Shown here piece after piece: positions 39,446 to 51,288 of a stretch of DNA of 64,000 nucleotides. Positions within the stretch are counted from its first letter, which is position 1; each line of letters starts with the position of its first letter. The notes under the pieces are model-generated. The model was not told the origin of the DNA, searched no databases, and worked only from the letters and a program-made list of their open reading frames with translations. Origin of the DNA: Mesonia aestuariivivens (GTDB lineage Bacteria > Bacteroidota > Bacteroidia > Flavobacteriales > Flavobacteriaceae); NCBI RefSeq assembly GCF_019311235.1, contig NZ_JAHWDF010000001.1:124001-188000 (forward strand). Reading direction: 5' to 3'. The translations under genes and the position numbers were made by a program.

Positions 39446-40465
39446 ATGAAAACACCTTTACTCGCTTTTAATCAAAAAGGAATTTACTGTGAAGCCGCCG
39501 ATGTTTACCTCGATCCGTGGAAACCAGTAAAAAAAGCTATCATTTCTCACGGGCATGCAGACCATTCTCGTTGGGGGCATCAGCAATACATTACGCATCA
39601 CACAAATGTGCCTATCATCAAATATCGCTTAGGTGACATTACGGTAACCGGTAAAGCGTGGAATGAGACGTTTACGATTAACGGAGTTAAATTTTCATTG
39701 CATCCCGCTGGTCATATTATTGGTTCGGCACAAATCCGAGTAGAACATAAAGGTGAAGTTTGGGTATTTACAGGCGATTATAAAACCGAAAACGACGGTA
39801 TTGCCGTGCCTTATGAAGTCGTGAAATGCCACACATTTATCACCGAATGTACTTTTGGGTTACCCGCTTTTAAATGGGTGCCTCAAGATTTAGTTTTTAA
39901 TGACATTAATAATTGGTGGCAGCAGAATCAAGACGACGGTAGAACTTCAGTCTTGTTTGGATATTCCTTAGGTAAAGCACAACGCTTGCTAAAACATTTA
40001 GACACTTCTATTGGTAAAATTTTTACACACGGCGCCGTCGAGAATATGACAGAAGTTGTTCGAGAATTGGTCGATTTACCTCCCACCGAAAAAATTACGA
40101 GAGATACCAAAAAGGAAGATATTAAGGGAAATATTGTAATCGCACCACCTAGCACTCATGGTAAGCCGTGGATCAAGAAGATGGTACCTTACGTGACTGC
40201 TTCTGCCAGTGGCTGGATGACATTTCGTGGCGCAAGAAGACGTAGAGCTATAGACAAGGGCTTTGTGCTTTCCGATCATTGCGATTGGCAAGGTTTACTC
40301 ACTTCTATAAAAGCTACAGGAGCAGAAAAGATTATTTGTACGCACGGCTATACCGATATTTTTTCCCGTTTTCTAGCGGAACAAGGTTACGATGCTAGAA
40401 CTGAACAAACGCAATACGAAGAAGAAAACGCAGAAGAGAGTAGTAAAGAAAAACAGGAAAGCTAA
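39446..40465 (+). CDS. Ligase-associated metallo-beta-lactamase-fold DNA exonuclease
   Basis: A 339-residue MBL/beta-CASP-type nuclease. The metal-binding motif HGHADH is at residues 35-40, followed by HPAGHIIGSAQ, FTGDYKTEND (third metal-binding Asp) and a late LSDHCDW. The protein matches the family found with bacterial ATP-dependent ligase and Lhr-like helicase in a DNA-damage cluster, thought to process DNA 3' ends. The ligase ATG follows the stop codon with no gap, so the two are translationally coupled. Confidence 0.9.
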   Translation: MKTPLLAFNQKGIYCEAADVYLDPWKPVKKAIISHGHADHSRWGHQQYITHHTNVPIIKYRLGDITVTGKAWNETFTINGVKFSLHPAGHIIGSAQIRVEHKGEVWVFTGDYKTENDGIAVPYEVVKCHTFITECTFGLPAFKWVPQDLVFNDINNWWQQNQDDGRTSVLFGYSLGKAQRLLKHLDTSIGKIFTHGAVENMTEVVRELVDLPPTEKITRDTKKEDIKGNIVIAPPSTHGKPWIKKMVPYVTASASGWMTFRGARRRRAIDKGFVLSDHCDWQGLLTSIKATGAEKIICTHGYTDIFSRFLAEQGYDARTEQTQYEEENAEESSKEKQES

Positions 40466-42061
40466 ATGAAGCAGTTTGCAGAACTCATACGAACCTTAGA
40501 TAGCACCAACAAAACTACACTCAAAGTGGAAGCGCTTTCGCATTATTTTAAAACTGCTAGCGATAAAGATAAAGTGTGGACCATTGCTATTCTTTCACAT
40601 CGTAGACCACCAAGACCTGTAAATACTACCTTAATGCGAGAATGGGCTTCAAAATTTTCAAAAATTCCACTATGGCTATTTGAAGAATCTTACCATATTG
40701 TAGGTGATTTAGCCGAAACGATTGCACTGGTAATTCCACCTTCAGAAAATTCTTCAGAAAAAAGTCTAAATCAGTTTCTACAAGAGATTATCGAATTAAA
40801 ACCTCGATCAGAAGAAGAGAAAAAAGAATATTTATACGAGAATTGGTTTAGCTTAAATTATTACGAACGTTTTGTATTTACCAAACTCATTACTGGTAGT
40901 TTTAGAATCGGAGTAAGTCAAAAATTAATGACGCGAGCTCTCTCTAAGGCAACCGAGATGGATGAAGATATTCTCGCCTATAAACTGATGGGAAATTGGG
41001 ATCCTGCCACCACTACATTCACCAATTTAGTCCTTGAAGAAAAACCAGAAGATTACCTATCTAAACCTTATCCGTTTTATTTAGCTTATGCGATTGAAGA
41101 TGAGCCGCAAGGTTTGGGAGACGTAAAAGAATGGGCTGCAGAACATAAGTGGGACGGCATCCGTTCGCAAGTAATTATTAGAAACGGAGAGTTATTTGTG
41201 TGGAGTCGCGGAGAAGAATTGGTGACCGAAAAATACCCAGAGTTCGAAAAGATTATCGGTCACATTCCTGATGGGACTGTAATCGATGGAGAGATATTGC
41301 CTTTCCCAAACAATGATATTGGAACATTTAAAGATTTACAAACCAGAATTGGTCGTAAAAACATTACCAATAAATTATTAGAAAAAACACCAGTTATTTT
41401 AAAAGCTTACGATTTGTTAGAGTGGGAAGGAGAAGATATTCGAGAAAAACCTTATCAAAAACGTCGCGAGATTTTAGAAAAACTATTTATTAATGTTGCT
41501 TCAGAAGAAATACCGTTGCACTTATCGACTACGATTTCATTTGAGAATTGGGAAGAAGCTGCAAAAGAAAGAGAGCGCTCTAGAGAAGTAAAATCTGAAG
41601 GATTAATGTTGAAGCGTTGGGATTCTCCCTATTTGGTAGGTAGAAAAAAAGGCGATTGGTGGAAATGGAAAGTAGATCCGCTCACCATAGATGCGGTTTT
41701 AACTTATGCGATGCGCGGTCACGGAAGACGAAGTAATCTATTTACAGATTATACGTTTGGGCTATGGGACGAAGAGAAAGAAGAGCTCGTCACGTTTGCT
41801 AAAGCTTACTCTGGATTAACCGATGCCGAATTTAGAAAAGTAGACGCGTGGATAAAGAAAAACACTTTAGAGCGTTTTGGGCCTGTGCGTAGTGTTACGC
41901 CGCATCACGTATTCGAAATCGCTTTTGAAGGTATTGCTGAATCTGGTAGACATAAAAGTGGAGTGGCTACTCGATTTCCTAGAATTTTACGTTGGCGACA
42001 GGACAAAAAAATTGAAGAAGCGAATACCTTAGAAGATTTGAAAGCTTTAATTCCGAAGTAA
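40466..42061 (+). CDS. ATP-dependent DNA ligase (LigB/Lhr-associated type)
   Basis: A 531-residue ligase. Adenylation motif I is EHKWDGIR with Lys228 as the AMP-accepting residue; IDGEILPF (motif III), SEGLMLKRWDSPY (motif IV) and WWKWKVDPLTIDAVLTYA (motif V) follow, then an OB-fold domain ending with RFPRILRWRQDK. The N-terminal helical DNA-binding domain fills residues 1-200. It is the repair ligase of the exonuclease-ligase-helicase-PdeM set, distinct from the NAD-dependent replicative ligase. The helicase gene starts 5 bp downstream. Confidence 0.93.
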   Translation: MKQFAELIRTLDSTNKTTLKVEALSHYFKTASDKDKVWTIAILSHRRPPRPVNTTLMREWASKFSKIPLWLFEESYHIVGDLAETIALVIPPSENSSEKSLNQFLQEIIELKPRSEEEKKEYLYENWFSLNYYERFVFTKLITGSFRIGVSQKLMTRALSKATEMDEDILAYKLMGNWDPATTTFTNLVLEEKPEDYLSKPYPFYLAYAIEDEPQGLGDVKEWAAEHKWDGIRSQVIIRNGELFVWSRGEELVTEKYPEFEKIIGHIPDGTVIDGEILPFPNNDIGTFKDLQTRIGRKNITNKLLEKTPVILKAYDLLEWEGEDIREKPYQKRREILEKLFINVASEEIPLHLSTTISFENWEEAAKERERSREVKSEGLMLKRWDSPYLVGRKKGDWWKWKVDPLTIDAVLTYAMRGHGRRSNLFTDYTFGLWDEEKEELVTFAKAYSGLTDAEFRKVDAWIKKNTLERFGPVRSVTPHHVFEIAFEGIAESGRHKSGVATRFPRILRWRQDKKIEEANTLEDLKALIPK

Positions 42062-42066
42062 TTTTT

Positions 42067-44541
42067 ATGAATAAAAAAGAGCTTTTAGCAATTGCAGATC
42101 ATTGGTTTTCCAATCAAGGCTGGAAGCCTTTTCCTTTTCAAAAAAAAACGTGGAATGATTATTTAAAAGGAAAAAACGGACTCCTAAACGCGCCTACCGG
42201 AAGTGGTAAAACCTACGCGCTTTGGGTGCCAATTGTGTTAGAATATTTAAAGAAAAATCCGGATTATAAAACCAAACACGAAAAAGGCTTAAAAGCTATT
42301 TGGATCACTCCGCTTCGGGCACTTTCCGTAGAAATCGCTCAAGCCGCCACTCGTTTTGCAGAAGAGACACAATCGGGATTAACTGTAGGTATTCGTACAG
42401 GTGATACTTCGCAGAAAGAACGCGCAGCTCAAAAAAAGTCGATGCCAGATTTGTTAATCACAACTCCAGAGAGTTTACATTTATTACTTTCTTCTAAAAA
42501 CTACCCTAAGATGTTCAAAAACCTCAATGCAATTGTGGCAGATGAGTGGCACGAATTATTAGGAAGTAAACGAGGTGTACAAACTGAACTCGCACTTTCT
42601 CGATTAAAAACAGTTTCCGACAATTTAAAAATTTGGGGAATTTCAGCTACAATTGGTAATCTTCCTCAAGCACAAGAAGTTTTATTGGGAGCCGAAAGCA
42701 AAGCGCTTCAAAATTCAACCTTAATTAAAGCGAATATTCAAAAGCAAATAGAAGTAAAATCGATTATTCCGCAGTCGATGGAAAAATTTCCTTGGCGTGG
42801 TCATTTGGGATTACACTTATTAGATGAGGTCGTTCCTATTATCAATAATTCCAAAACCACTTTAATCTTCACTAATACACGATCGCAGTGTGAGCTATGG
42901 TTTCAGAAATTAATGAACAAATATCCAGAATTCGCGGGTGAAGTAGCTATGCATCACGGAAGTATTAATAAAGAAACTCGACTTTGGGTAGAACAAGCCA
43001 TTAGAAATGAAAGTTTAAAGGCGGTAATTTGTACTTCAAGCTTAGATTTGGGTGTAGATTTTGCTCCTGTTGAAACGATTATTCAGATTGGCGGTCCAAA
43101 AGGAGTAGCTCGATTTTTACAACGGGCCGGGCGCAGTGGTCACCAGCCGGGAAAAGCCAGTCGAATTTACTTTTTACCTACGCACGCGATCGAGTTAATT
43201 GAAGCTTCAGCATTGCAAAAAGCCGTAGAGAAAAAAGCGGTAGAAGATCGGATTCCGTATTTACAGAGTTTTGATGTGTTGGTGCAGTATTTAACAACTT
43301 TAGCTGTTTCAGATGGTTTTTATCCAAAAGAAATATATCCAGAAATTAAATCTACATTTTGCTTTCAAGATTTAACCGAAGATGAATGGCGTTGGTGTTT
43401 AAATTTTATTACCAAAGGGAGCCAGAGTTTACAAAGTTATGATGAATATAAAAAAGTAGAGATTGAAGAAGATGGTAAATTTAAGGTCAACCATCGTGGC
43501 GTAGCGATGCGTCATCGGTTGCAAATTGGTACCATTGTTAGTGATGCGATGCTCACTGTAAAATATATAAAAGGTGGGTTTATAGGTGCGATTGAAGAAT
43601 ATTTTGTCTCTAAATTAACTCCTGGTGATGTCTTTACCTTTGCAGGAAGAAATTTAGAACTTTCTCGCATTAAAGGGATGCAAGTCCTGGTGCGAAAATC
43701 GAAAAAGAAAACGGCAAAAGTCCCAAGTTGGATGGGCGGCAGAATGGCCTTTTCAGCTCAAATGAGTGAACTGCTGCGGGAAGAATTGTACGAAGCCGCA
43801 GAAAGCGTGGGTTCAAACTCAAAAAAGAGAAGTCCAGAAATGGAAGCGCTTCAGCCAATTTTAGAACGTCAGCAATTAGAATCGATTATTCCGAAGCAAG
43901 ATCAATTTCTTATAGAAACCTTTAAAACACGAGAAGGTTATCACGAGATATTCTATCCGTTTGAAGGTCGGTTTGTGCACGAGGCTTTAGGGAGTTTGTT
44001 GGCTTACCGCATCAGTTTATTATCGCCAATTTCTTTCAGCATAGCTTTTAACGATTATGGTTTTGAGCTGCTTTCTGATCAAGAAATTGATATGCAACAA
44101 GTACTAGATAACAATTTGTTTTCTTCAGAATTTTTGATGGACGATCTCTACAAAAGTTTAAACGCAACCGAAATGGCACGTAGAAAGTTTCGAGATATTG
44201 CTGTAATTGCCGGATTAGTATTTACAGGCTACCCAAATAAATTGGTTAAGAATAAGCACTTGCAATCAAGCTCTCAATTACTGTTCGATGTATTTAGAGA
44301 TTATGAAGATGATAATTTGTTGTTTCAGCAAGCGTTTAGAGAAACTTTCGAGCACCAGTTGGAAGAAGGAAGATTAAGACAAGCTTTGGAGCGTATTCAT
44401 ACCCAAGAAATTATTTGGAAAGCTTGCCAAAAACCAACGCCATTTTCATTTCCAATCATTACCGATAGATTGCGAGAGAAATTATCTTCAGAAAAATTAG
44501 AAGATCGTATACAGCGAATGCTCAAACAACTCGAAAAATAA
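42067..44541 (+). CDS. Ligase-associated DEXH-box DNA helicase (Lhr-like)
   Basis: An 824-residue superfamily 2 helicase of the Lhr-core type. The Walker A motif PTGSGKT is at residues 43-49, then TPLRALS (Ia), TTPESLHLLLS, the DEWH form of motif II, GISATIG (III), and in the second RecA fold TNTRSQCELWF, CTSSLDLGVDF and QRAGRSGHQPG (VI). The winged-helix and Lhr-specific C-terminal parts follow. It should unwind DNA 3'-5' for the linked exonuclease and ligase. It ends just before repeat copy B. Confidence 0.93.
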   Translation: MNKKELLAIADHWFSNQGWKPFPFQKKTWNDYLKGKNGLLNAPTGSGKTYALWVPIVLEYLKKNPDYKTKHEKGLKAIWITPLRALSVEIAQAATRFAEETQSGLTVGIRTGDTSQKERAAQKKSMPDLLITTPESLHLLLSSKNYPKMFKNLNAIVADEWHELLGSKRGVQTELALSRLKTVSDNLKIWGISATIGNLPQAQEVLLGAESKALQNSTLIKANIQKQIEVKSIIPQSMEKFPWRGHLGLHLLDEVVPIINNSKTTLIFTNTRSQCELWFQKLMNKYPEFAGEVAMHHGSINKETRLWVEQAIRNESLKAVICTSSLDLGVDFAPVETIIQIGGPKGVARFLQRAGRSGHQPGKASRIYFLPTHAIELIEASALQKAVEKKAVEDRIPYLQSFDVLVQYLTTLAVSDGFYPKEIYPEIKSTFCFQDLTEDEWRWCLNFITKGSQSLQSYDEYKKVEIEEDGKFKVNHRGVAMRHRLQIGTIVSDAMLTVKYIKGGFIGAIEEYFVSKLTPGDVFTFAGRNLELSRIKGMQVLVRKSKKKTAKVPSWMGGRMAFSAQMSELLREELYEAAESVGSNSKKRSPEMEALQPILERQQLESIIPKQDQFLIETFKTREGYHEIFYPFEGRFVHEALGSLLAYRISLLSPISFSIAFNDYGFELLSDQEIDMQQVLDNNLFSSEFLMDDLYKSLNATEMARRKFRDIAVIAGLVFTGYPNKLVKNKHLQSSSQLLFDVFRDYEDDNLLFQQAFRETFEHQLEEGRLRQALERIHTQEIIWKACQKPTPFSFPIITDRLREKLSSEKLEDRIQRMLKQLEK

Positions 44542-44574
44542 AACTTGTAGAGGCAATTCTAAATTAAATAATTT

Positions 44575-44676
44575 GGGCGTTTCCCTGCGGGTCGGGCTAT
44601 TCGTTTCAATTCCTCATAAGTTTTCGCTATCGCTACAACGTATTGCGGGATTTTCACTGCTATCCCTAACGCAAAA
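44575..44676 (+). repeat. Interspersed ~100-bp repeat, copy B
   Basis: Begins GGGCGTTTCCCTGCGGG and CGGGCT, ends CTATCCCTAACGCAAA; the middle (TTTTCGCTATCGCTAC) differs from copy A. It fills most of the 201-bp gap between the helicase gene and the PrcB-like lipoprotein gene. Same orientation as copy A at 39260-39374. Confidence 0.7.
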
Positions 44677-44742
44677 AGCATGTTAAGAACAATACACATC
44701 ATTCTTCAATTCTCTATCTTAGCACATTGAAAAAATATACTT

Positions 44743-45198
44743 ATGAAAAATTTAATTTATATCTGTTTAGCAGTATTTATGTTCAGTTGTAATTCAGCAA
44801 AAGATATGCAGCATATGGCACCTAAAGTAATTTCTGAAGGAAACTTATATGGAAGCGGCAGTGAAGGTTTAACCCAACAAAACACGATTATAACCAACGA
44901 AACGGAATGGAAAGAATTTATAGCCAGAGTAAATTCAACCAATGAAGTTATTAAGAAAGAACAAGCATCAAAAATAGATTTCGACGAGCATAACGTAATC
45001 GCTATAATTGATCAACAACGTACCACTGGCGGACATAAAATTGAAATCGGTGAAACTTACACCCAAAACGGAATTGTATATTTTACGATTAAAAAATCAC
45101 ATCCAGAAGGTATGGCAACCAGTGTAATGACTCAACCTTATTATTTGGCTGCAATCCCTAAAACCAAACAAGAAATAGAATTTAAAGAAGCTGAGTAA
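44743..45198 (+). CDS. PrcB-domain lipoprotein
   Basis: A 151-residue predicted lipoprotein with lipobox MFSC (Cys16). The mature part (NETEWKEFIARVN, IDFDEHNVIAIIDQQRTTGGHKIEI, QPYYLAAIPK) follows the PrcB C-terminal domain pattern known from a spirochaete protease complex. Its biochemical role here is unknown. It sits between the Lhr-like helicase and PdeM, directly abutting the latter, which is surprising for an envelope protein inside a DNA-repair cluster. Confidence 0.75.
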   Translation: MKNLIYICLAVFMFSCNSAKDMQHMAPKVISEGNLYGSGSEGLTQQNTIITNETEWKEFIARVNSTNEVIKKEQASKIDFDEHNVIAIIDQQRTTGGHKIEIGETYTQNGIVYFTIKKSHPEGMATSVMTQPYYLAAIPKTKQEIEFKEAE

Positions 45199-45831
45199 TT
45201 GTATACGATTACGATTAAAAATAATCATTTTCAACTTTCCTGTAGCGGAGTAGCCTTTTGGGAAGAGCAACAAACCTTGCTTATTGCAGATGTTCACTTG
45301 GGTAAGATTTCTCATTTTAGAAAACACGGGAGCGCTGTCCCTCATTTAGCGATTCAGAAAAACTTTGATCGTTTAAATGAATCGGTAGAACAATTTCAGC
45401 CTGAAAAAGTTATTTTTTTAGGCGATTTATTTCATAGTGTGTTAAATGCAGAATGGAATTTATTTGAGCACTGGCTACAACAACAAAAAGCCGAAGTTAT
45501 ATTAATTGCCGGTAATCACGATATTATTTCACCTATTCATTATGAGGATTTAGGGATGAAAATTCATCAAGAACTTCTCATTGATAAATTTCGTCTAACA
45601 CATCATCCAGAAGAGCAAGAAGGTAGTTTTAATATTTGCGGGCATATACATCCTGGTTATCATTTAGTAGGTTTAGCGAAACAACATTTAAAACTGAAAT
45701 GTTTTTTCCGTAGTGAAAATCAGTTAATTTTACCTGCTTTTGGCGAATTTACAGGCTGTTTTGTGATGAAACCGGAAAAACAAGATGAAGTGTATGTTTG
45801 TGCTAATGCTAAGGTAATTCAAGTAAATTAA
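45199..45831 (+). CDS. pdeM: Ligase-associated DNA-damage-response endonuclease PdeM
   Basis: A 210-residue calcineurin-like metallophosphoesterase with LLIADVHLGK (DxH), FLGDLFHS (GD), IAGNHD (GNHD) and CGHIHPGY (GHxH), the complete two-metal set. PdeM is the fourth member of the bacterial ligase/Lhr/exonuclease DNA-damage module. The start is TTG, placed directly after the stop codon of the PrcB-like gene, so expression probably depends on translational coupling with that gene. Confidence 0.9.
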   Translation: MYTITIKNNHFQLSCSGVAFWEEQQTLLIADVHLGKISHFRKHGSAVPHLAIQKNFDRLNESVEQFQPEKVIFLGDLFHSVLNAEWNLFEHWLQQQKAEVILIAGNHDIISPIHYEDLGMKIHQELLIDKFRLTHHPEEQEGSFNICGHIHPGYHLVGLAKQHLKLKCFFRSENQLILPAFGEFTGCFVMKPEKQDEVYVCANAKVIQVN

Positions 45832-46793: not shown

Positions 46794-46930
46794 ATTGAGA
46801 TTTTAGAAACTATAGAGTAGAATATAGAAAATAGACATTCGAAATTCAACTTTTTTAAAATTGATTCCTGAATATTTTGTCTAGTTTCTATATTCTAAAA
46901 GCGAAGCGGTCTAAATTCTCTATACTCAAT
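46794..46930. repeat. Large imperfect inverted repeat holding AGCGAAGCGGTCTAAA
   Basis: The left arm 46794-46836 (ATTGAG ... TAGAATATAGAAA ... TAGAC) is imperfectly complementary to the right arm 46879-46930, which has an extra insert with AGCGAAGCGGTCTAAA at 46900-46915. It fills most of the 223-bp gap after the TspO-like gene. Confidence 0.5.
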
Positions 46931-47011
46931 TCTACTTACTACGTAAACCTGATATATATCATATTTTAAATCGTATGAGCTATTCATCTTTGGAGATTAA
47001 AATTTATACAA

Positions 47012-48805
47012 ATGAAAAACTCATTGTCTCCGCACCAATTTCATATACCGGTAATGGGCATCGCATATACCATAGACACGCCTGCAAAGGTGGCACATTA
47101 CGGAATCAATTCATCTATTTCAATAATAGAAGATCATCTTATCGAAAAGATGCGTGCTTATTATTACAAGCTTAATCATCAAGAGTATACTCCCATCACA
47201 AAAGATACTGTGAATTTTCGAGCAAAGCGAATTACCGATTATCTGAATTTAATTGGAGCTGAAGTAAAAAAGAAAGTAGAAGAAGTGAAAACCGCTGCGT
47301 TTACGAGTACTTCAGAAATTACAAAATATTTTGATTTACTTCCTGAAGTTTCTGAATTGAAACAAAAATACCTTCATTTTCTAAACTTAGAAGAAAGTTC
47401 ATCAGCTAAAGAAACTTTAGAAGCTCAACTTAGAAATGAAGTTAAAGCTGGCGCTATTGAAGTTAATATTATGACGAAAGTAGATCGCGAGCAACTAGAT
47501 GAAAATAAAGAGCCTATAGAAAATGGCTCTGATGCTTTACAGGCATTAAAAGGCTATGCAGAAAGTAATTTAGAAAATTCAACCTTAGTTTTTTCTGCAG
47601 GAATGAATCCTAGATTATTCAATTATTTATCGTCTTTTGATAGCTTTCAACCAGACAATAACGGAAACTTTAAAAAGGCAATTGCTATTAAAGTAAGTGA
47701 TTACCGTTCGGCTTTAATCCAAGGAAAATACTTGGCGAAAAGAGGAATTTGGGTAAGTGAATTTAGAATTGAATCTGGGTTAAATTGTGGCGGCCACGCC
47801 TTTGCTACTGATGGATTTTTGTTAGGTCCAATTATGGAAGAATTCAAACAGAAAAAAGAAGAATTATCGGCAGAGTTAGCGTCATTGTATCGAAACTCTT
47901 TAGCTGAAGAAATTGAAATTACCGAGTTACCCGAAATAAAAATTACCGTTCAAGGTGGTATTGGTACTTTTGATGAAGATAATTTATTAAAAGGTTACTA
48001 CGAAGCAGATGCTACGGGCTGGGGATCGCCATTTTTATTGTGTCCCGAAGCGACCCAAGTAGATGAACAAACGTTAGGGAAGCTGCAAAAAGCTAAAGAA
48101 AAAGATATTGTACTAAGCCATAGCTCGCCGTTAGGGGTGCGTTTCAATTATTTAAAAGGCGCAAGTGGAGAAGAATTTAGAAGAAAAAATCTACTTAGAA
48201 ATAGACCAGGAAGTTCTTGCCCAGAGAAACTTTTGCAATCTAATACTGAGTTTACTACAGAACCTATTTGTACCGCTTCTCATAAATACCAAAAACTGAA
48301 AATGCAACAAATTCAGCATTCAGATTTACCAGAAGAAGCAAAAGCAAAAGAAATAGATTTATTGATTCAAAAAGAATGTTTGTGCACTGGTTTATGTAAT
48401 AGTGTAGCGAAAAATTACGATTTTCAATTTGTAAAGAAAATGGATTTTGTTACGGTTTGTCCTGGTCCTAATTTGGCTTATTTTAACGATAAATATTCAT
48501 TGAAAGAATTAATAGATCATATTTATGGACGAAAAAATGTATTGAGTGGTTATCGTCCGCATATGTTTATTAAAGAATTGCAATTGTATATTAATCACCT
48601 AAGAGAGTTGTTGGATAGTACAGATTTTTCTAATAAAAGAGAAGCTAAAAAGTTCGATAAGTTTAGCCAGAATTTGGAAGATGGAATCGCATATTACAAT
48701 CAATTATATTTTGAAGGTCTTATAAGTAACAAACAATTTTCAACTGATTTGTTAAGTTGCGAAAGTCAAATTCAGGAAATAACGAAACAGGTAAAAGCAG
48801 CATAG
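47012..48805 (+). CDS. Uncharacterised cysteine-rich protein, possible FMN/IMPDH-type barrel enzyme
   Basis: A 597-residue cytoplasmic protein that I do not recognise. Residues about 150-375 look like a TIM barrel: FSAGMNPRLF, AIKVSDYRSALIQGKYL, GLNCGGHAFATDG, then VQGGIGTFDEDN (315-322) and ADATGWGSPFLL (332-343), the latter two resembling the phosphate-binding end of FMN or IMPDH/nitronate-monooxygenase barrels. Eight cysteines are spread over 259-483 (C259, C344, C403, C420, C456, C458, C462, C483), including CLCTGLC and VCPGPN, which could bind a metal or Fe-S cluster. The N-terminus (HFGINSS-like AHYGINSSISIIED) and C-terminus are helical. It stands alone between repeat-bearing gaps. Enzymatic activity is inference only. 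Confidence 0.6.
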   Translation: MKNSLSPHQFHIPVMGIAYTIDTPAKVAHYGINSSISIIEDHLIEKMRAYYYKLNHQEYTPITKDTVNFRAKRITDYLNLIGAEVKKKVEEVKTAAFTSTSEITKYFDLLPEVSELKQKYLHFLNLEESSSAKETLEAQLRNEVKAGAIEVNIMTKVDREQLDENKEPIENGSDALQALKGYAESNLENSTLVFSAGMNPRLFNYLSSFDSFQPDNNGNFKKAIAIKVSDYRSALIQGKYLAKRGIWVSEFRIESGLNCGGHAFATDGFLLGPIMEEFKQKKEELSAELASLYRNSLAEEIEITELPEIKITVQGGIGTFDEDNLLKGYYEADATGWGSPFLLCPEATQVDEQTLGKLQKAKEKDIVLSHSSPLGVRFNYLKGASGEEFRRKNLLRNRPGSSCPEKLLQSNTEFTTEPICTASHKYQKLKMQQIQHSDLPEEAKAKEIDLLIQKECLCTGLCNSVAKNYDFQFVKKMDFVTVCPGPNLAYFNDKYSLKELIDHIYGRKNVLSGYRPHMFIKELQLYINHLRELLDSTDFSNKREAKKFDKFSQNLEDGIAYYNQLYFEGLISNKQFSTDLLSCESQIQEITKQVKAA

Positions 48806-48988: not shown

Positions 48989-49004
48989 AGCGAAGCGGTC
49001 TAAA
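48989..49004 (+). repeat. AGCGAAGCGGTCTAAA element, second copy
   Basis: Identical 16-mer to the one at 46900-46915. A third copy (15 bases) lies inverted at 51274-51288. All three are intergenic. Confidence 0.65.
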
Positions 49005-51247: not shown

Positions 51248-51273
51248 TTTTTTATTTTATTAGATATAAGAAC

Positions 51274-51288
51274 TTAGACCGCTTCGCT
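51274..51288 (-). repeat. AGCGAAGCGGTCTAA element, third copy (inverted)
   Basis: On the minus strand this equals 15 bases of the element at 46900-46915 and 48989-49004. It lies upstream of the 50468 SDR gene. Confidence 0.65.

Follow-up and report, generated by a model that had tools for sequence, protein, structure and literature searches.

FabX is an acyl-acyl carrier protein (acyl-ACP) dehydrogenase/isomerase with an ACP-binding helix, alpha7. Its structural description (PMC8626469) presents a flavin mononucleotide (FMN) barrel of the nitronate monooxygenase (NMO) type, in which residues 267-363 form a subdomain that holds a [4Fe-4S] cluster on C300, C304, C308 and C320; His182 acts as the active-site base, and this Fe-S subdomain takes the place of the NAD(P)H motif of FabK. 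FabX produces unsaturated fatty acids. A second study (PMC11300592) describes NGO1024 of Neisseria gonorrhoeae as a FabX homologue (approximately 36% identity) and cites a report that the Neisseria homologue is needed to produce them without oxygen, its acceptor being unknown. Here, we describe a gene at positions 47012-48805 (forward strand) of a 64,000-nucleotide stretch of the Mesonia aestuariivivens genome (contig NZ_JAHWDF010000001.1, positions 124,001 to 188,000; hereafter, the window). Judging from its frame, its homologues, a structure model and a fold match, its 597-residue product is a predicted FabX-like FMN/Fe-S barrel protein of an unnamed family. Tentatively, and with somewhat less than even confidence, we read it as an FMN/Fe-S dehydrogenase regulated by low oxygen or nitric oxide (NO), plausibly an O2-sparing, FabX-like acyl-chain dehydrogenase.

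The open reading frame (ORF) is intact from ATG to stop. GGIG at residues 315-318, CLCTGLC at 456-462 and VCPGPN at 482-487 lie in frame as the initial annotation had it, and ADATGWGSPFLL occupies residues 332-343; the cysteines, given there as eight, number nine (259, 344, 403, 420, 456, 458, 462, 483 and 583). That annotation also described an accessory gene of no recognised family that stands alone between gaps with interspersed repeats, and this description holds. Two gaps of about 0.2 kb each enclose the gene, and a 15-mer, GCGAAGCGGTCTAAA, is present on both flanks (46901-46915 and 48990-49004; 0 expected in shuffles), with a third copy, carrying one mismatch, on the reverse strand at 51273-51287 among interspersed repeats. 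The word accessory is fair, as 10 of 16 congeneric genomes searched, its own among them, carry the gene. The window protein matched no family in Pfam, PHROGs or PADLOC and nothing above the cut-off in NCBIfam, and a sequence search of the PDB returned two unrelated entries, at E 1.6 and 0.29. When 43 members were scanned singly against Pfam and NCBIfam, scattered weak matches were obtained; one of them, NCBIfam PRK00420 (NF001645), touched 15 of the 43 (best E, 1.6e-5; residues 258-286 of the window protein) and was taken as noise because the window protein reaches 13 bits where 162 are required. In literature searches that covered titles and abstract openings, no paper named the family and none combined "FabX" with "denitrif".

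The family is conserved and is not a chance ORF. Full-length relatives were found in 19 of 40 genomes of relatives, its own included, and in a draw of 296 genomes made evenly over the phylum Bacteroidota the family was present in 112 (67 of 140 genera), one of which, G327, was counted on a partial match. The 42 relatives aligned show 42-82% identity. A pattern scan of 84,980 species genomes returned at least 581 relatives among at least 592 pattern matches; the best 80 of these relatives are, by their titles, Bacteroidota or unnamed bacteria, plus one Ignavibacteriae bin. Two copies, both apparently intact, are present in G015 and in G190, and a third genome (G133:C1:4371176-4372862) holds, besides an intact copy, a second one that is broken into pieces, two of them with in-frame stops. 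A mobile or viral origin was considered and rejected, since the 15 pattern matches in viral contigs included no relative and no PHROGs or PADLOC family was hit; likewise, the family patterns had no match in plasmids.

In an alignment of 128 members, C259, H262, C403, C420, C456, C458, C483, H503, G315, G316, S372, P373 and N487 are invariant, while C344, C462 and C583 are not conserved, so that the conservation expected of the cysteines stood for six of them and failed for these three. The 128 sequences comprise 48 (49 loci, L001 being the query, minus L018, in which the script found no ORF) and 80 named loci. C259 was part of the pattern used to fetch the 80, which therefore do not count as independent support for its invariance; the same six cysteines (C259, C403, C420, C456, C458 and C483) were, however, invariant in 48 of 48 sequences before the 80 were added. 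Spacing is equally regular, with C403-x16-C420 in 127 of 128 members, C-x-C in all 128 and C458-x24-C483 in 120. Of the other alignments, A1 holds 42 of the 49 loci, A2 omits L051 and A5 omits 17 of the 79 other loci.

The structure prediction and fold search proposed in the initial annotation returned an FMN-type alpha/beta barrel (AlphaFold2 with an 80-sequence alignment; pLDDT, 93.4; pTM, 0.92). Foldseek, ranked by E value, placed FabX and PfaD after two trans-acting enoyl reductases (E, 1e-9 to 3e-8). When the 1000 best Foldseek chains were re-ranked with VIA and the best 50 rows were considered, five FabX entries took the lead (Z, 22.9-23.6; 320-335 residues; root-mean-square deviation [rmsd], 3.0-3.2), the best of them with a Z of 23.6 over 332 residues at an rmsd of 3.1 and 18% identity. 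They were followed by FabK (Z, 20.4-21.3; 281-301 residues aligned), by 2-nitropropane dioxygenase (NPD) and PA1024 (approximately 20), and at lower scores by PfaD (17.4-18.8), fatty-acid-synthase enoyl-reductase domains (15.7-18.5) and nitronate monooxygenases/nitroalkane oxidases (15.9-18.0). The alignment with the FabX entry 9lt5 runs over its residues 12-363 and pairs 332 of these 352; by arithmetic, the Fe-S subdomain (267-363, 97 residues) must therefore have counterparts in the model for no fewer than 77 of its residues. The barrel and the C-terminal Fe-S subdomain of FabX are thus both represented in the whole-model alignment, and from these ranges and counts the equivalent of FabX 267-363 is placed at residues ~365-510 (48104-48541), the putative C-terminal cysteine subdomain. 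The earlier suggestion of an FMN/IMPDH-type phosphate-binding end stands for the predicted FMN-type barrel; its IMPDH half was dropped, since IMPDH came last of the 50 rows (Z, 15.1) and the GGIG and GWG loops fit the nitronate-monooxygenase/FabX branch better. Similarly, the proposal of a flavin barrel joined to a metal or Fe-S module agrees with a closest predicted fold, FabX, that is built in this way, although the cysteine pattern is not that of FabX and the C-terminal part taken alone has no match.

Residue-level correspondence to FabX was sought by profile comparison. True FabX sequences were taken from a Paludibacter genome, which also holds the present family, and then from eight further loci; the Paludibacter sequence matched PDB FabX at an E of 2.5e-70. 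At E ≤ 1e-60, true FabX occurred in 2 of the 296 Bacteroidota genomes, both lacking the present family. Eight PF03060-matching stretches from seven genomes of the window's order were also tried as FabX, and none had the cysteine motif. In hhalign, the family aligned to the nine-sequence FabX profile (from which L201 was omitted) in a register that pairs H262 with His182, GGIG with GGIY, SPLG with SPVG, C403 with C300 and C420 with C320, and this path is meaningful despite its weak score. The invariant H262, the counterpart of the FabX active-site histidine, lies with the invariant C259 in ESGLNCGGH (254-262; 47771-47797), which would form a loop on the FMN side; GGIG...GWGSPFLL (315-343; 47954-48040) is, on sequence, conservation and the same alignment, the predicted FMN phosphate-binding end.

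Within the putative cysteine subdomain, the FabX ligand pattern C300/C304/C308/C320 (CX3CX3CX7-11C) was not found: just C403 (48218-48220) and C420 (48269-48271), both placed by conservation and hhalign, correspond to FabX ligands. The invariant C456-x-C458 (48377-48385) sits in a segment that by eye is longer than in FabX, and C483-PGPN (48458-48472) carries an invariant Cys and Asn. Also by eye, and unscored by any tool, C483-PGPN...SLKELI of the window protein parallels GxN...SVKELI of FabX, GPN standing for GxN. With two of the FabX cysteines retained, the other two absent and C456-x-C458 and C483 gained, we infer a cluster with a different ligand set; relative to FabX, the metal site looks re-wired. 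Binding of both FMN and a cluster is probable.

Searches with hidden Markov models (HMMs) against 1264 neighbour ORFs as decoys pointed in the same direction. The FabX HMM placed 50 of the 128 family sequences above the best decoy (best E, 2e-4), one sequence that hmmsearch did not report being counted as a miss, and FabX supplied the top four matches of the family HMM (E, 0.028-0.16; best decoy, 0.26). The NMO HMM placed 11 of the 128 above the best decoy, seven unreported sequences being counted as misses. This bears on the possibility that the family is a classical nitronate monooxygenase or nitroalkane oxidase, for which the predicted FMN-type TIM barrel of the PF03060 superfamily and the GGH histidine would speak. 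The window protein has no Pfam match, however, the 43 members gave no Pfam NMO match at E ≤ 0.1, the profile match is weaker than that for FabX, and oxygen-dependent chemistry is ill-suited to the genomic context described below; we regard this identity as very improbable.

The upstream regions share a palindrome. When the 200-nt stretches that precede the His8 codon in 128 family genes were searched for every gapped 4-mer palindrome, ATGA-N6-TCAT was found 28 times (1.4 expected), TGAT-N4-ATCA 25 times (1.3), TATG-N8-CATA 14 times (0.7) and TGAC-N4-GTCA 13 times (0.0); runs such as TTTT-N4-AAAA were near expectation. To judge from their sequences, the four palindromes are faces of one box, whose cores are the same as in the FNR/DNR box TTGATnnnnATCAA and in the HcpR box TTGACnnnnGTCAA given in PMC1274295. 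In the window, the FNR/DNR-like box TGATATATATCA, its motif class following the same source, lies at 46950-46961 on the forward strand, 50 nt from box end to ATG, and is the only exact copy in the 3.3-Mb assembly. The form TGAYN4RTCA was present up to 160 nt upstream in 39 of the 80 family genes, compared with 78 of the 1083 other ORFs at the same loci, a background that includes genes inside operons and possibly false ORFs; when only genes preceded by an intergenic space of 100 nt or more were counted, the figures were 39 of 67 and 61 of 664 (P = 5e-20). Among the other ORFs, boxes are concentrated upstream of a cytochrome c gene (8 of 9), which has nosZ as a neighbour in six of its ten loci, of RIC (5 of 13), hemN (4 of 7) and hemA (3 of 3, close relatives), and of a gene for an unknown 411-residue membrane protein (5 of 6). 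The last (L094:18763-19995 and relatives, six loci) is of membrane type, has no Pfam match and is a candidate member of the same predicted regulon. Six fuller regulator cores, searched with up to two mismatches, ranged from no excess to about threefold over shuffles and were set aside.

In the window's own genome, a hemN/globin/ccoN cluster holds four TGAYN4RTCA sites in 20 kb, compared with three in the whole 64-kb window; they lie 68 nt before the gene leading to hemN, 57 nt before the gene leading to globin and 268 nt before ccoN, the fourth being upstream of no gene start. These sites are suggestive only. Membership of the family in a low-oxygen/NO regulon is probable. Beside the same hemN/globin/cbb3 cluster lies a response regulator gene (L218:384-1433; G000:C73) that by eye resembles a recurring neighbour of the family.

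The neighbourhood was surveyed within 10 kb at 80 loci, namely, 79 of the 80 named loci (L093 was left out) and the window. Recurrent neighbours per 80 loci were Rrf2-type regulators (16), PAS kinases (16), response regulators (13), RIC (12), NadA-like proteins (8), hemN-like proteins (7), NosZ (6) and qNOR (6), together with nos accessory genes. Representatives were confirmed for Rrf2 (TIGR00738), RIC (TIGR03652, 247 bits), NosZ (TIGR04246, 945 bits), qNOR (PF22085) and hemA (PF05201), and the remaining neighbours were named by eye. In seven genomes chosen for a nearby RIC or nosZ gene and surveyed across 14-20 kb, nos genes were present in this stretch in six and RIC in six. Counted on what appears to be the contig of the family gene, and hence as lower bounds, RIC lies less than 1 kb away in at least 13 genomes (on the same strand in twelve); the corresponding count for nosZ, taken over 15 kb, is at least 16. 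Across the sampled genomes, and with no tree correction for kinship, RIC was found in 76 of 112 family-bearing and 41 of 184 other genomes (Fisher P = 8e-15), NosZ in 55 of 112 and 43 of 184 (P = 7e-6), and RIC by genus in 48 of 67 with the family and 24 of 73 without (P = 5e-6). A small YhbP-like protein (NF002900, under the cut-off) is encoded at L087:9522-9950 and in ten other loci, directly upstream of the family gene in eight.

This context invites the main rival explanation, in which the same FMN/Fe-S barrel would act on a nitrogen compound (a nitro, nitronate, S-nitroso or dinitrosyl-iron substrate) as an enzyme of NO or nitrosative stress, with RIC, NO reductase and truncated globin as partners and with a cysteine site that senses or handles NO damage. 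Besides the RIC and nos/qNOR neighbours, RIC co-occurs with the family among NosZ-negative genomes too (29 of 57 with the family and 15 of 141 without), globin and FeS_assembly_P genes are neighbours in L209, and nitronate monooxygenases are among the fold relatives. On the other hand, RIC was missing at E ≤ 1e-30 from 36 of the 112 genomes with the family, among them that of the window; the fold search placed the acyl-ACP enzyme FabX closer than any nitronate monooxygenase; and the presence of the same box before hemN and hemA genes speaks for oxygen supply no less than for NO. We consider a nitrogen-compound substrate unlikely.

On the preferred reading, the gene would encode an FMN-binding alpha/beta-barrel dehydrogenase of the nitronate-monooxygenase/FabX superfamily, whose C-terminal subdomain most likely holds an iron-sulfur cluster on four of C403, C420, C456, C458 and C483, and whose expression under low oxygen or NO would depend on a regulator of the FNR/DNR type. 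In a mechanism modelled on that of FabX, His262 would abstract a proton next to the thioester of the acyl chain in the active site, FMN would receive the hydride, and electrons would leave singly via the cluster, to be taken up by an acceptor other than NAD(P)H. Its most probable role would then be to dehydrogenate (desaturate, and perhaps isomerise) acyl-ACP or acyl-CoA, giving unsaturated chains when oxygen-dependent desaturases cannot work. As the putative low-oxygen/NO regulon includes hemN, an oxygen-independent counterpart enzyme would be the simplest reading. An acyl-thioester substrate as such is somewhat doubtful, and direct lipid evidence is thin: an FA_desaturase-family gene is a neighbour in 4 of the 80 loci (one checked, PF00487), two of them with the box, and a thioesterase-like gene, named by eye, lies near the family gene in 7 loci, both weak hints. 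Speculatively, and at a likelihood that we would set low, the family may provide a further, unnamed Bacteroidota route to unsaturated or dehydrogenated acyl chains, with a re-wired Fe-S site, C259 at the flavin and FNR/DNR-type induction without oxygen, in which electrons pass to a respiratory acceptor of the denitrification chain and not to O2.

Several results weigh against a FabX-like acyl-chain dehydrogenase. FabX, where studied, uses oxygen. Its identity to the family by structure is just 18-19%, and the leaders by Foldseek E value, 4yx6 and 4cw5, are enoyl reductases other than FabX. The hhalign probability is low (18%; P = 0.0013), and with the 128-sequence alignment the score of 31.7 exceeds the maximum of 40 column shuffles (30.1) by a bare margin, a reversed-profile control giving 17.4. 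The positions of FabX C304 and C308 fall on L407 and T412, so both ligands are absent here, and although seven of nine FabX sequences were in the top 12 of the family HMM, the other two lay amid decoys, that of H. pylori at rank 401. The window protein drew 0 Pfam families at E ≤ 10, and PF03060 was absent from the best 25 of the 42 Pfam families touched by the 43 members, where the order of the list means that any further PF03060 match would come from a single member at E ≥ 0.16. Folded alone, segment 362-520 (pLDDT, 83.6) matched no PDB fold, FabX included; we read this null as a loss of barrel and cluster context, and it still gives the assignment no help. As for context, RIC and NosZ genes are missing within 10 kb of the family gene at most of the 80 loci, and the neighbourhood link, while clear, is therefore partial; the adjacency of RIC within 1 kb is confined to four genera; and the co-occurrence statistics ignore kinship. 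Neither RIC nor NosZ passed the thresholds applied (RIC, E ≤ 1e-30) in the window's genome, so a link to NO is not obligatory. Finally, acyl carrier protein, fabF and fabZ genes were not noticed among the recurrent neighbours, no search aimed at these three having been made.

Some of these results would suit a flavin barrel without an Fe-S cluster, in which the cysteines are zinc-binding, structural or a redox switch and the protein is an NAD(P)H-dependent enoyl reductase of the FabK or PfaD kind. Enoyl reductases come first by Foldseek E value; FabK, PfaD and the fatty-acid-synthase enoyl-reductase domains are the next fold matches after FabX (Z, 15.7-21.3); the C-x-C...C pattern is not that of FabX; and the isolated C-terminal segment matched no Fe-S fold. 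The low-oxygen genomic context argues against such an enzyme, and we regard it as quite unlikely. Elsewhere in the window, upstream of the gene, positions 39446-45831 of the forward strand resemble, by eye, a DNA-repair run of an MBL-fold exonuclease, an ATP-dependent DNA ligase, a DEXH helicase, a small ORF and a metallophosphoesterase (45199-45831).

More than one-third of the sampled Bacteroidota genomes hold this family, which is nameless in the libraries used and which shares part of its context and a predicted box with genes for nitrous-oxide reductase, RIC and oxygen-independent haem synthesis. It would offer a test, in culturable and harmless strains, of how membrane fluidity is kept without oxygen in bacteria that rely on oxygen-dependent desaturases, and of what accepts the electrons of FabX-type enzymes in anaerobes.

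Among known systems, FabK, nitronate monooxygenase and PfaD (PF03060 superfamily) share the FMN TIM barrel (Z, 15.9-21.3) but differ in their NAD(P)H or O2 chemistry and, according to PMC8626469, in having no FabX-like Fe-S subdomain; the Pfam model of the superfamily does not recognise the window protein. Judged by its putative cluster ligands, the family is not FabX either, nor is it Pfam-recognised. FabX of Helicobacter pylori (HP0773; 7e1q and 9lt5) has 363 residues, compared with 597 here, at 18-19% identity. Relative to it, comparison by eye finds three additions: a mostly helical insert in the predicted barrel at residues ~41-145 (47132-47446; boundaries from the model, also by eye), ~45 extra residues between C420 and C483, and three C-terminal helices past the end of the FabX match (residues 518-596; 48563-48799; model and fold alignment). 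C304 and C308 are replaced by C-x-C and C483, and an extra invariant cysteine, C259, stands beside GGH. Shared with FabX are the predicted barrel and C-terminal cysteine subdomain, the GGH histidine, the GGI and SPxG loops, and C403 and C420 on two of the four cluster cysteines. NGO1024, also called UfaA, is set beside the family by description, and what the two would share is a suggested physiology, that of an oxygen-sparing route to unsaturated chains.
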